From contig QBMK01000007.1 in the NCBI GenBank assembly GCA_003249035.1, positions 62,001 through 126,000 on the forward strand: DNA of 64,000 bases. The letters are read 5' to 3'. This stretch comes from Pseudanabaena sp. (GTDB lineage Bacteria > Cyanobacteriota > Cyanobacteriia > Pseudanabaenales > Pseudanabaenaceae). The position numbers and the translations under genes were made by a program. Under the pieces are notes generated by a model, which saw nothing but the letters and a program-made list of their open reading frames with translations, did not search any database and was not told the DNA's origin. Of the stretch, positions 41,002 through 44,885 are shown in pieces (positions within the stretch are counted from its first letter, which is position 1; each line of letters starts with the position of its first letter).

Positions 41002-41385
41002 TTAGCTGACCTGTTGCTTGAGAAAACTTGGAATGTCAATCTGTCTTCGGGAATTCATTCGCGAGTTGTTTGTATAGAGCAGACTTTCGGATACAGCAGA
41101 GAGTATCTCAGGATCTTGAGTAGAGGATCTAACTAAATTAAGGAACAACCTCTCAATTTTTTGCATTGACTCAATAACTCGGTGCTTAATCTTGATCTGG
41201 TCGGTAGCTGACCAGAAAAATTCAGATTCATCGACTGAGCAGTTAGTCATGAGAAGCTTAATCTCATCCATTAAATAATTCACATACATAGCACCATCTT
41301 GCGGCTGATCAAAATCATCCTGCACCAATCGAGGCTGAAATTGATGCGTATAGATAGGGGGAGTAGGGAAGGCATCACTTTGCAT
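41002..41385 (-). CDS. Hypothetical protein, tandem paralogue B
   Basis: A 127-residue protein of unknown function from the Met at 41385; a GGAG (41391-41394) sits 5 nt ahead of it and inside the 10-nt gap to the preceding gene. The earlier Met at 41427 would overlap that gene. A Pro-rich N-terminus is followed by a helical block LMDEIKLLMTNCSVDESEFFWSA (core near residues 40-62) and by KIERLFLNLVRSS, with no membrane segment. The core resembles that of the gene upstream. Probably cotranscribed with it. Confidence 0.65.
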   Translation of the reverse strand: MQSDAFPTPPIYTHQFQPRLVQDDFDQPQDGAMYVNYLMDEIKLLMTNCSVDESEFFWSATDQIKIKHRVIESMQKIERLFLNLVRSSTQDPEILSAVSESLLYTNNSRMNSRRQIDIPSFLKQQVS

Positions 41386-41395
41386 ATATACTCCG

Positions 41396-41803
41396 TTAAT
41401 TATGTGTTGCAAGGTCGGAATTAACATTACGTCTGCGACGATCGCCTTTGTGTTTAGCTAGTTGTGTAGACAGATGCAGCTTAGGATAAGGTAAATCTGC
41501 TAAGACCTCTAAAAGTCGCGAAAAATCTCTCTGTTTACGTCTACCACTAAGAAATTGAGGCACTTCTGATGGGTTTGTAGTTTTTTGCAAGCAATGACGG
41601 AGATTCGCGATCGCATTCCAAAAGCTACACAGCTCTTCGTAAGTACAGACTAATAAAAATGATTCGATCTCGCTCATCAAATGAGAAAAACGATCTGCAA
41701 TACTAGGCCGAACATCAAACTGTGATGTTTGAGATGGTGAACTAGGTAATGAACTAGATATTACATTTAGGTGACGTTTGGGTAATTTTTTTGGGGCGCT
41801 CAT
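41396..41803 (-). CDS. Hypothetical protein, tandem paralogue A
   Basis: A 135-residue basic protein of unknown function. A low-complexity Ser/Lys-rich N-terminus is followed by LMSEIESFLLVCTYEELCSFWNA and then SRLLEVLADLP. The first block aligns with the next gene at L-M-x-E-I, C-S/T, E and F-W-x-A. A Shine-Dalgarno (AGGAA) lies 8 nt ahead of the ATG. No domain recognised, no signal peptide. The C-terminus is strongly basic (KHKGDRRRR), which could bind nucleic acid, but that is guesswork. Confidence 0.62.
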   Translation of the reverse strand: MSAPKKLPKRHLNVISSSLPSSPSQTSQFDVRPSIADRFSHLMSEIESFLLVCTYEELCSFWNAIANLRHCLQKTTNPSEVPQFLSGRRKQRDFSRLLEVLADLPYPKLHLSTQLAKHKGDRRRRNVNSDLATHN

Positions 41804-42649
41804 GTTTCAATTCCTATATTTGTGAATTTATACGAGAAGTAAAAGTCTTTTTTTGTCGTAAAAAATATTTTCCTATTGCTATATATGCTTCCCAGTGATA
41901 CAAGAGTTAAATACTTCTGTAGGTATAGGTAGGTGCGTCGAACAGGTATTGCGATGGTCTTGAAGACGAATAAATCAATTTCTTATTCTTTGATGACGAA
42001 TAGTTTACGCTTCAAGCTCCAATTTGCACACCAGAAAAGATAGTATTTTTTGTCAGTAAATACATGAATAGAATCAAGAATATTAATTAGGAATACGATT
42101 AAAACTTTGCAGTTAAATTAATCTAAAGACATTCTGTTAATTGTTTGTAAATTTAGAAGTTGCAATTGTATTGATTTAAAAAATAATTATTAATTTCAAA
42201 GATTCTTGTTCAATTCGCTAGGTCATTTCGCTAGATGCGTTGTAGAAATTCAAAATCAAGATTTTATATTTGTAAATTTTAGATTTAGCTGAACTTGTTA
42301 CTAATCTGGGAGCCATGAGCCTCTATTAGATAGTCGTATCCCAATTTGGTGAATAATTGCTGAGGTCGCTGCAATGCTTCCTTTTGGCAATTGTTCTTTT
42401 TTGCAATAACTATGTTTTGATGCAAAGAGAATATCAGAAAAGACAAGAAAAAATTGGCTTTTATCCAAGCCAATGTCAGACTAAATCATGATCAAGTAAA
42501 AATTTAGATAAATCTATTGCAAATGCAAAAATATATGTTATTTATCTAGCTTGAAAAACATGAAAATGCTTATTAAATTATCCGTAAATTGTAATAGTTA
42601 GTCATTGATCGATGGTGATTAATTTAACCGCAGGATAATTTGTTAGTAC
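41804..42649. other. AT-rich gap upstream of the NB-ARC gene
   Basis: About 850 nt of low-GC sequence with no supported gene. The 62-codon minus-strand frame at 42285-42473 has no recognisable motif and no Shine-Dalgarno I can defend. It should contain the promoters for the paralogue pair (minus) and for the NB-ARC gene (plus). Confidence 0.45.
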
Positions 42650-42781
42650 ATGACAAATCCAGAAGATGATCAATTTTTCTTTGGATTTTATATGGATTAT
42701 GAGATTTCAATAGCAAAAGACTGTTCTAACTTTTGCTACTTCATAACCCGACACATTCCGGCAACGAGACATAAAATTTAG
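42650..42781 (+). CDS. Possible 43-codon leader ORF before the NB-ARC gene
   Basis: An ATG at 42650 opens a short frame (MTNPEDDQFFFGFYMDYEIS...) ending with TAG at 42779-42781. The stop overlaps the first base of the GAGGAG Shine-Dalgarno of the NB-ARC gene, 13 nt before its ATG. The peptide is acidic and aromatic, with no known relative. Placement suggests a leader or small partner; chance cannot be excluded in AT-rich DNA. Confidence 0.25.
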   Translation: MTNPEDDQFFFGFYMDYEISIAKDCSNFCYFITRHIPATRHKI

Positions 42782-42786
42782 AGGAG
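42781..42786 (+). promoter_or_regulatory. Strong Shine-Dalgarno for the NB-ARC gene
   Basis: GAGGAG is followed by 8 nt and then ATG at 42795. It is among the best ribosome binding sites in the window and fixes this start codon. Confidence 0.8.
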
Positions 42787-42794
42787 TTACGAGT

Positions 42795-44885
42795 ATGACT
42801 ACGATAGCTTGTGAGGAAGCGATCAAAGTTCTTGATGCGGTAATGGGCAAAAAACGCCTAAGCGACATTGAAGATCAAGTGTTCCGTCAAACATTGGAAG
42901 GTGAGACTTATCAAAAGATTGCTGTAAGATGCGGATACGATGCTTCATATATTCGCGATGTTGGTTATCGCCTATGGAAAAAATTGTCTGCTGCCTTTGG
43001 TGAGCATGTAAGCAAGAAGAATCTACAAGTTGTGTTGAGAGCTCAGTCCAATAAGTTGCAGAATAAGGTTGTGCCAGAGCAATCGATCTCACCCAACCTT
43101 CACAATGCTAATCCGATCGCTGTTGATGTGAATGCCAAAAGATGCGATTGGGGTAATGCGATCGATACCACAATTTTTTATGGTCGTAATGAAGAACTTA
43201 CCACAGCCAAAAATTGGGTTCTCAGCGATGGTTGCCGTCTCTTAAGCGTGATTGGAATGGGTGGCATCGGTAAAACTGCTTTTGCAACAAAGCTTGTAGA
43301 AGAGATGCAATCACAATTCACTTTGATTGTTTGGAAATCTCTCCGCAATGCACCGACCATAGAAACTGTACTTGCCGAATTGGTAAGCTTTTTGACAAAT
43401 CAGGAGATCTCAACCTTACCGCAAGATTTAAATGGGCTGTTGGGAATATTCATTCCAGTACTAAAGCAATCGCGCTGCTTGATTGTGTTGGATAATGTCG
43501 AGTCAATCCTCCGCAGTGGTGAGACCACAGGACGCTATAGTCTAGGATATGAAGGCTATAGTGAGTTATTTCGTCAAGTTGGCGAAGTGCGCCATCAAAG
43601 TTGTTTGATTCTGACCAGTCGAGAGAAGCCCCATAATGTGCTTCCTCCTGATAGCAACGATCGTATGGTCCGTTCTCTACAATTGGATGGCTTAAAAGAA
43701 GAAGCGTTATATCTATTTCAAACAGGATTGGAGATCACCTCAGAAACTCGCAAGTTGCTCGACATTTATGGTGGCAATCCCCAATCTCTGAAGGTAGTTG
43801 CACGTTCTATCCAAAGCACATTCAATGGTGATATACAAGAATTTCTCGATCATGACGCGAGTGTTTTCGGTGCTATTCGCGATCTCCTCGATCAACAGTA
43901 TGATCGTCTCTCTGCACGCGAGCAGGAGGTGATGTTTTGGCTAGCGATCGAGCGTGAACCAATCACTACCGACAATCTCCGTCAGGACATCGTGCCAATA
44001 GTTTCTAAATCCCAAATTTTTGACTCAGTGGATTCTCTGCGTTGGCGATCTCTAATCGAAAAGAATGCCAATAGCTACACTCAGCAGCCTATGGTAATGG
44101 AGTATATGACAGATCTCTTGATCGAGATGACCTACAACGAAGTAGTTGAGCGCAACCCTGACTTCTTGATGAGCTATGCCCTTGTTCAACATCGCGCCGA
44201 AGACTACATCCGCGAGACTCAGATTCATCAAATTTTGCAACCACTCACCAATCGACTCTTGGCGCACTATGGCAATGTCGATACTATGAAACGTGAGTTA
44301 CATAGCATCATTGAGGCTTTAAATGATCGTAAAACTGCTATCGGCTATGCGCAATCCAATATTATGAATCTGCTTAGAGCATCGCAAACCGATCTCGCTA
44401 AAAGCTTTTGTCGATTCCCAGAACAGGTGACCGAGCATTCTGATCTGCAAATTTTAGAGAGACTGCTTGAAAGCGATCGCGCGGGTGGACTTGCCACATG
44501 GGATCATCGTATTCCTTGGGCAAATAATCCTCTTGCTCAACAAACGTCTGAATCAAAAACAAAAATTCGCAGCAAGAATATCTATTATCAATGGACAGAA
44601 GGTTCTCTCGAACAGTTGAAACAAGAACTGAAGCAGCAGCCCAAACTCCGCAAGCGTTACTACGCTTGGTTGAACGAGACAGAATTTGCAAAGATCGATG
44701 CTAATTTTGAAGCTGTTAAAATTACGGATACGCTCAATCAAACCGTTGATGCTAGGTTGGTCTTTATCAATGAAGTCAATATTGTTGAGCCTCCCGTAGG
44801 ATTGCCAACCCCTAGCGATCGTCGTGACCAAGCTCGGAAAAACAAGCAAGATATGCGAGCTAATCGTCTTAAAAAGCACTGTTAA
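42795..44885 (+). CDS. STAND NTPase: vMAP-type HTH plus NB-ARC, atypical C-terminus
   Basis: A 696-residue protein. Residues 1-85 resemble the vWA-MoxR-associated N-terminal HTH domain (LSDIEDQVFRQTLEGETYQKIA...YIRDVGYRLWKKLS). An NB-ARC NTPase follows: YGRNEEL, Walker A GMGGIGKT (154-161), Walker B LIVLDNVE (229-236), LILTSREKP (271-279), then winged-helix and helical regions to about 520. In cyanobacterial relatives this part normally leads into pentapeptide or WD40 repeats. Here the last 170 residues contain neither; they are charged, with YYQWTEGSLEQLKQELKQQ, and end in a basic tail. STAND proteins are signal switches that oligomerise on ligand binding, and some act in phage defence. The ligand and output here are unknown. 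Confidence 0.82.
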   Translation: MTTIACEEAIKVLDAVMGKKRLSDIEDQVFRQTLEGETYQKIAVRCGYDASYIRDVGYRLWKKLSAAFGEHVSKKNLQVVLRAQSNKLQNKVVPEQSISPNLHNANPIAVDVNAKRCDWGNAIDTTIFYGRNEELTTAKNWVLSDGCRLLSVIGMGGIGKTAFATKLVEEMQSQFTLIVWKSLRNAPTIETVLAELVSFLTNQEISTLPQDLNGLLGIFIPVLKQSRCLIVLDNVESILRSGETTGRYSLGYEGYSELFRQVGEVRHQSCLILTSREKPHNVLPPDSNDRMVRSLQLDGLKEEALYLFQTGLEITSETRKLLDIYGGNPQSLKVVARSIQSTFNGDIQEFLDHDASVFGAIRDLLDQQYDRLSAREQEVMFWLAIEREPITTDNLRQDIVPIVSKSQIFDSVDSLRWRSLIEKNANSYTQQPMVMEYMTDLLIEMTYNEVVERNPDFLMSYALVQHRAEDYIRETQIHQILQPLTNRLLAHYGNVDTMKRELHSIIEALNDRKTAIGYAQSNIMNLLRASQTDLAKSFCRFPEQVTEHSDLQILERLLESDRAGGLATWDHRIPWANNPLAQQTSESKTKIRSKNIYYQWTEGSLEQLKQELKQQPKLRKRYYAWLNETEFAKIDANFEAVKITDTLNQTVDARLVFINEVNIVEPPVGLPTPSDRRDQARKNKQDMRANRLKKHC

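Follow-up and report, generated by a model that had tools for sequence, protein, structure and literature searches.

A core STAND NTPase of Pseudanabaena with a predicted divergent PAS domain in place of C-terminal repeats

The prevailing picture of STAND/NLR proteins, a switch family that includes plant disease-resistance proteins, is one of repeat-sensing switches of defence or cell death, and superstructure-forming repeats at the C-terminus are usual, if not essential, for STAND NTPases of the NB-ARC clade. A gene in the 64,000-nucleotide stretch of Pseudanabaena sp. DNA analysed here (the window) encodes an NB-ARC protein in which these repeats are missing and a C-terminus of another kind stands in their place, which raises the question of what this C-terminus is and what such a protein does. 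The open reading frame encodes 696 aa from its ATG, and we refer to it as STAND-PAS for reasons given below. Its layout is as follows:

42795..44885, plus strand: STAND-PAS gene, 696 aa (open reading frame; orthologues)
42795..43034, plus strand: N-terminal HTH, residues 1-80, sigma-r4/LuxR-like by weak family matches (helices in the AlphaFold2 model with pLDDT about 85; conserved)
43140..43724, plus strand: NB-ARC NTPase core, residues 116-310, motifs intact (Pfam NB-ARC, 1.6e-9; alignment)
43725..44366, plus strand: ARC2, winged-helix and helical region, residues 311-524, common to the WD40-type paralogues (also AlphaFold2)
44436..44798, plus strand: predicted divergent PAS domain, residues about 548-668 (bridged profiles; AlphaFold2; PDB structure matches)
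44805..44882, plus strand: variable basic tail, residues 671-696 (66% mean identity within the genus)

The conserved GMGGIGKT (P-loop), LIVLDNVES, TSRE and GNP motifs, together with the Pfam match, place the NTPase core in the NB-ARC clade of STAND NTPases, a membership that is independent of the repeats. Paralogues from the same and related genomes align to residues ~4-535 only, with ~37-44% identity and the same HTH, NTPase and helical region; most of them extend to about 1150-1250 aa, and those whose sequence was read continue into pentapeptide and WD40 repeats beyond ~535, whereas STAND-PAS ends in its C-terminal domain at 696 aa. The order of HTH, NB-ARC, helical region and distinct C-terminus that an earlier note on this DNA had proposed is thus borne out, with the similarity to paralogues ending near residue 530, and so is its statement that another domain replaces the usual repeat sensor, as no Pfam repeat family was found in the C-terminus. 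Its naming of the HTH as 'vMAP-type' was not confirmed: the matches, all of them weak, point to HTHs of the LuxR and sigma-70 region 4 kinds. VMAP proteins belong to the vWA-MoxR ternary conflict system, which is marked by neighbouring MoxR AAA+ and vWA genes (PMC7159879); among the adjoining open reading frames, read by eye, we saw neither, only two small genes (s135 and s141) and reductase-like, glycosyltransferase-like and SDR-like genes. A stand-alone paralogue of the HTH, of ~180 aa and with ~50-56% identity over residues 3-107 (e.g. L174:1869-2405), occurs in several genomes of the genus and adjoins a purD-like gene in one of them (G002).

Direct searches gave no name to the C-terminus: residues 525-696 matched no significant family in Pfam, NCBIfam or PHROGs. 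Matches to YkoP and SWAP70 (E 0.04-0.1) were taken as chance, and in a PDB sequence search with the C-terminus profile the coiled-coil-rich PPP1R21 (E 0.0025) was taken as compositional, all others having an E of at least 1. The sole outside match worth following was that of the genus profile to a 227-aa open reading frame of another family (E 2.7e-4), which itself has sub-threshold Pfam PAS matches. Used as a query in its turn, this protein matched the STAND C-termini in ten Pseudanabaena genomes (7e-5 to 7e-4), the STAND-PAS fusion of a sister genus (G467; 2e-6) and two more proteins of ~235 aa. Landmarks along the domain, NQPMA/NNPLA and RYQAWLN/KYHAWLN among them, are common to the bridging proteins and the STAND C-termini. 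The bridged profile matches many ~1000-aa open reading frames across the class, and in all five that were inspected a Pfam PAS domain lies at the matched place. Aligned by hhalign to a cyanobacterial PAS profile, which was built from the same large open reading frames that the bridged profile had matched, the bridged alignment scored 42.2, and 150 column shuffles reached 15.4 at most; the STAND C-termini on their own scored 17.7, a value that two of the 150 shuffles matched or exceeded. In sequence profiles, the PAS assignment is therefore reached only through the bridging sequences.

The predicted structure points the same way. AlphaFold2, run without templates on 19 sequences of the C-terminal domain that included the bridging proteins and no canonical PAS, returned a model with pLDDT 92.6 and pTM 0.84 in which the elements follow the PAS order (H8-20, E24-29, a short second strand, H39-45, H49-53, H57-60, H65-75, E78-86, E92-105 and E111-125), that is, a sheet of five strands in which helices separate the second strand from the third, as in the PAS fold. 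A full-length model from genus sequences only was poor in the C-terminus and too weak to use there. All of the 50 top matches listed by Foldseek against the PDB were PAS/LOV-type domains. A structural comparison by VIA put 3mfx_B first, with a Z of 12.1 and an rmsd of 3.0 across 111 residues, and its hit list includes EL222, PpsR and a LuxR-family PAS regulator. The reading of residues ~548-668 as a divergent PAS domain is thus well supported by the predicted fold and the bridged profile taken together, although the bridging proteins are indispensable to the case from sequence and also entered the alignment that was modelled. The earlier note had seen here a possible new sensor or effector module; the sensor was a good guess, and the novelty of the domain did not survive, bridged profiles, AlphaFold2 and PDB matches all indicating a divergent PAS. 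It would not be a LOV domain, the PAS subfamily in which the GxNCRFLQ motif carries the flavin-binding cysteine: the motif is absent, the Pseudanabaena orthologues that were read have no cysteine within the PAS, and neither a flavin nor a heme motif was recognised in the sequence.

We give next to no credence to the view that sees in the C-terminus an array of degenerate repeats or what truncation has left of a longer protein. The paralogues do end in WD40 or pentapeptide repeats at the same point, as it would predict, but length and sequence are the same across the genus (87-92% identity), no longer orthologue and no repeat family were found, and a PAS fold is predicted with pLDDT 92.6, so that this view falls unless the predicted fold is wrong.

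How the gene is distributed bears on whether it is an accessory defence locus, as had been suggested from its surroundings. The C-terminus was found in 25 of 26 Pseudanabaena genomes (in one of the 25 as 29 residues only, at a contig end) and is fused to STAND wherever the contig permits a view; the fusion is also present in the sister genus. An apparent stand-alone C-terminus (G009) proved to be a gene cut by contig ends, and a weak match elsewhere (G000:C43, E 0.2) was rejected because it runs antisense to an apparent ECF-type sigma factor. Mean pairwise identity within the genus is 92% for one half of the C-terminal domain, 87% for the other and 79-85% for the HTH, NB-ARC and helical parts; identity to the sister genus is 68.6% for the PAS, 46.9% for the NB-ARC and 50% for the HTH. 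The PAS is thus the most conserved part of the protein. Divergence at fourfold sites in the C-terminus is like that in the rest of the gene, which indicates that the constraint acts on the protein and rules out overlapping antisense reading frames as its cause.

The gene is therefore core to the genus, with conserved neighbours and apparently vertical inheritance, and the accessory defence locus is not borne out: a 'sensor' that is the slowest-evolving part of its protein is the opposite of an arms-race receptor. That STAND-PAS might nevertheless be an accessory defence or cell-death protein, with the C-terminus as sensor of an invader or as effector, finds some footing in the NB-ARC STAND architecture and in a weak match of residues 410-529 to a PADLOC candidate model (E 6e-4). 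We consider it highly improbable, as the patchy, mobile distribution and the effector domain of anti-phage STANDs are both missing here: the gene is syntenic and slow-evolving throughout the genus, no effector domain was recognised by Pfam, and the phage and plasmid collections searched held no copy of the C-terminus.

Upstream of the gene, on the opposite strand, lie the two small genes, and between them and STAND-PAS a divergent intergenic region of roughly 990 bp with two conserved noncoding blocks:

41002..41385, minus strand: s141, with a conserved start MQSDAFPTPPIY and a core paralogous to s135 (synteny; hhalign E 3e-6)
41396..41803, minus strand: s135, first gene of the divergent pair, of no family (synteny)
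41804..42075, minus strand: conserved region upstream of s135, putative promoter or leader, which moves with s135 in G416
42436..42595, plus strand: conserved block upstream of the STAND gene, which stays with STAND in G416; similar sequence precedes the sister-genus gene

The isolated, AT-rich gap described earlier is AT-rich indeed, with 32% GC at 42000-42999 against mostly 39-47% in neighbouring coding stretches; the gap itself is largely this divergent region with its conserved blocks. The small genes of no known family said to lie beside STAND are real and linked to it: the pair adjoins the STAND gene, divergently, in 21 of the 22 genus genomes examined (window included), and in the sister genus the arrangement is the same but for one inserted gene. 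The likeness of s135 and s141 lies in a 34-residue core, and the two also gave a cross-match in the profile search. Neither matched a Pfam family, and in a sample of 292 genomes of the phylum they found matches outside the family only at E 5e-4 or worse. In the one exception to the linkage (G416), s135 and s141 have been relocated together, and the relocation split the intergenic region, ~320 bp having left with s135 and ~320 bp having remained with STAND, each ~82% identical to G020. Because of this split, each block behaves like a promoter or leader that belongs to its own gene. We also considered a small RNA that would end in the terminator-like hairpin at 42453-42474 and rejected it, since relatives do not keep the hairpin, and the 42436-42595 block is for this reason also read as promoter or leader DNA. 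The block next to s135 contains a conserved CTGACAAAAAATACTATTTTTTCTGGTGTGCAAAT (minus strand) and a similar GACAAAAAA box near the s135 start, and the two are possible operator repeats.

In the other genera checked, the pair is present or absent together with the fusion. Four relatives in the family (G459, G508, G524 and G548) gave no PAS fusion with the bridged profile, apart from a weak match of 0.02 in G548, and s135 was not found in them. One of these genomes (G459) holds many NB-ARC STAND paralogues, with 19 matching stretches, most of them in ~1200-aa open reading frames. Short forms in G508 and G548 group with the sister-genus fusion in the tree of the shared region (support 96/95, long branches).

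Two natural versions of the protein lack one of its parts. In a genome from another genus of the family (G544; L144:4731-6296), which carries the s135-s141 pair elsewhere in the genome, the frame joins the equivalent of residue 89 directly to residue 365, residues 90-364 being absent, and the version consists of HTH, winged helix and PAS without NB-ARC; this in-frame absence of the whole NB-ARC is read from a single draft assembly, in which a run of N follows the domain. In Pseudanabaena mucicola (G017), the 570-aa frame keeps HTH and NB-ARC and the PAS is absent. In the tree of the shared region, its protein is placed next to that of the window and nests within the genus (support 87/92, long branch), a position that suggests loss of the PAS; as the species retains the pair beside its STAND gene, the PAS is unnecessary for the linkage. 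All versions seen retain the HTH, even that without the NTPase.

From domain order, conservation and gene linkage, we infer that STAND-PAS is a transcription regulator that senses by its PAS, is gated by its NTPase and works with or on s135 and s141, a reading to which we assign a probability of roughly 60%. The protein would act as a cytoplasmic one-protein switch, with the PAS in place of WD40, TPR or pentapeptide repeats. The PAS might bind a small ligand, a cofactor or a partner protein such as s135 or s141 and so alter its own contact with the winged-helix region; the NB-ARC would then exchange ADP for ATP, the protein would oligomerise, and the HTH would bind DNA, most likely the divergent region shared with s135 and s141, which could be targets, co-regulators or the source of the input. 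The NTPase-less HTH-PAS form (G544) supports this reading, and so do relatives of the PAS part that lie beside RHH- or HTH-like small genes (see below). Counting against it are the weak PAS score of the STAND C-termini on their own, the use of bridging proteins in the confident model, the absence of an evident cofactor motif, the reading of NB-ARC loss from a single draft assembly, the weak family matches of the HTH and the PAS-less STAND of P. mucicola with its pair.

The last of these also weighs on the other explanation, in which the PAS is a protein-interaction domain that docks s135 and s141 or another invariant partner, STAND being held in an assembly that would control the small proteins or some other process and have no output in transcription. 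The very strong conservation of the PAS is what contact with an invariant partner would produce, the domain has no cofactor motif, and the pair is linked to the fusion and co-occurs with it. However, P. mucicola retains pair and STAND without the PAS, the two loci can be apart (G416, G544), and an HTH that persists even where the NTPase is gone favours DNA binding as the output. We therefore judge docking to be unlikely, though less so than a defence role.

Among known systems, sigma-70-domain proteins of cyanobacteria have been reported to carry NB-ARC and WD40 as accessory domains (PMC11119718). What appears to be new here is a predicted PAS as the sensor of a STAND protein, and we found no paper in which NB-ARC or STAND is joined to a PAS sensor, which, for a search of the open-access literature only, is weak evidence. 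Regulators of the MalT/AfsR/LAL type likewise combine a STAND NTPase with a DNA-binding domain and a sensor, but MalT has a C-terminal HTH and a TPR sensor, whereas STAND-PAS has an N-terminal HTH and a putative PAS sensor. One-component PAS transcription factors such as EL222 and PpsR have, as here, a PAS sensor and an HTH output in one soluble protein, and the G544 version comes close to them; unlike these factors, nearly all STAND-PAS members have an NB-ARC NTPase between HTH and PAS. It is about an even call whether all this amounts to a core regulatory system of a single cyanobacterial family. An NLR-type switch would here have been rewired to PAS and joined by two dedicated partners, small paralogous proteins of no known family, and NTPase and PAS, each lost in a different lineage, would show a STAND protein turning into or out of a one-component PAS regulator. 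A core STAND that apparently senses by PAS, with natural versions lacking NTPase or PAS, offers a clean test of what each part contributes, and s135 and s141, two small families without known relatives, gain a testable partner.

Outside the family, the PAS part is closest in sequence, among the relatives found, to cyanobacterial proteins of ~230 aa (L080, L096, L098 and L138), which consist of an N-terminal domain and a PAS-like domain not named by Pfam, with no NTPase or HTH in the chain, both of which STAND-PAS has. In all four cases checked, the gene of such a relative overlaps an upstream small RHH- or HTH-like gene, one of which matches Pfam RHH_1 at 1.5e-6. Gene pairs of this kind, in which a small RHH/HTH-like gene overlaps that of a ~230-aa PAS-like protein, were seen at the cyanobacterial loci L113, L111, L112 and L150.
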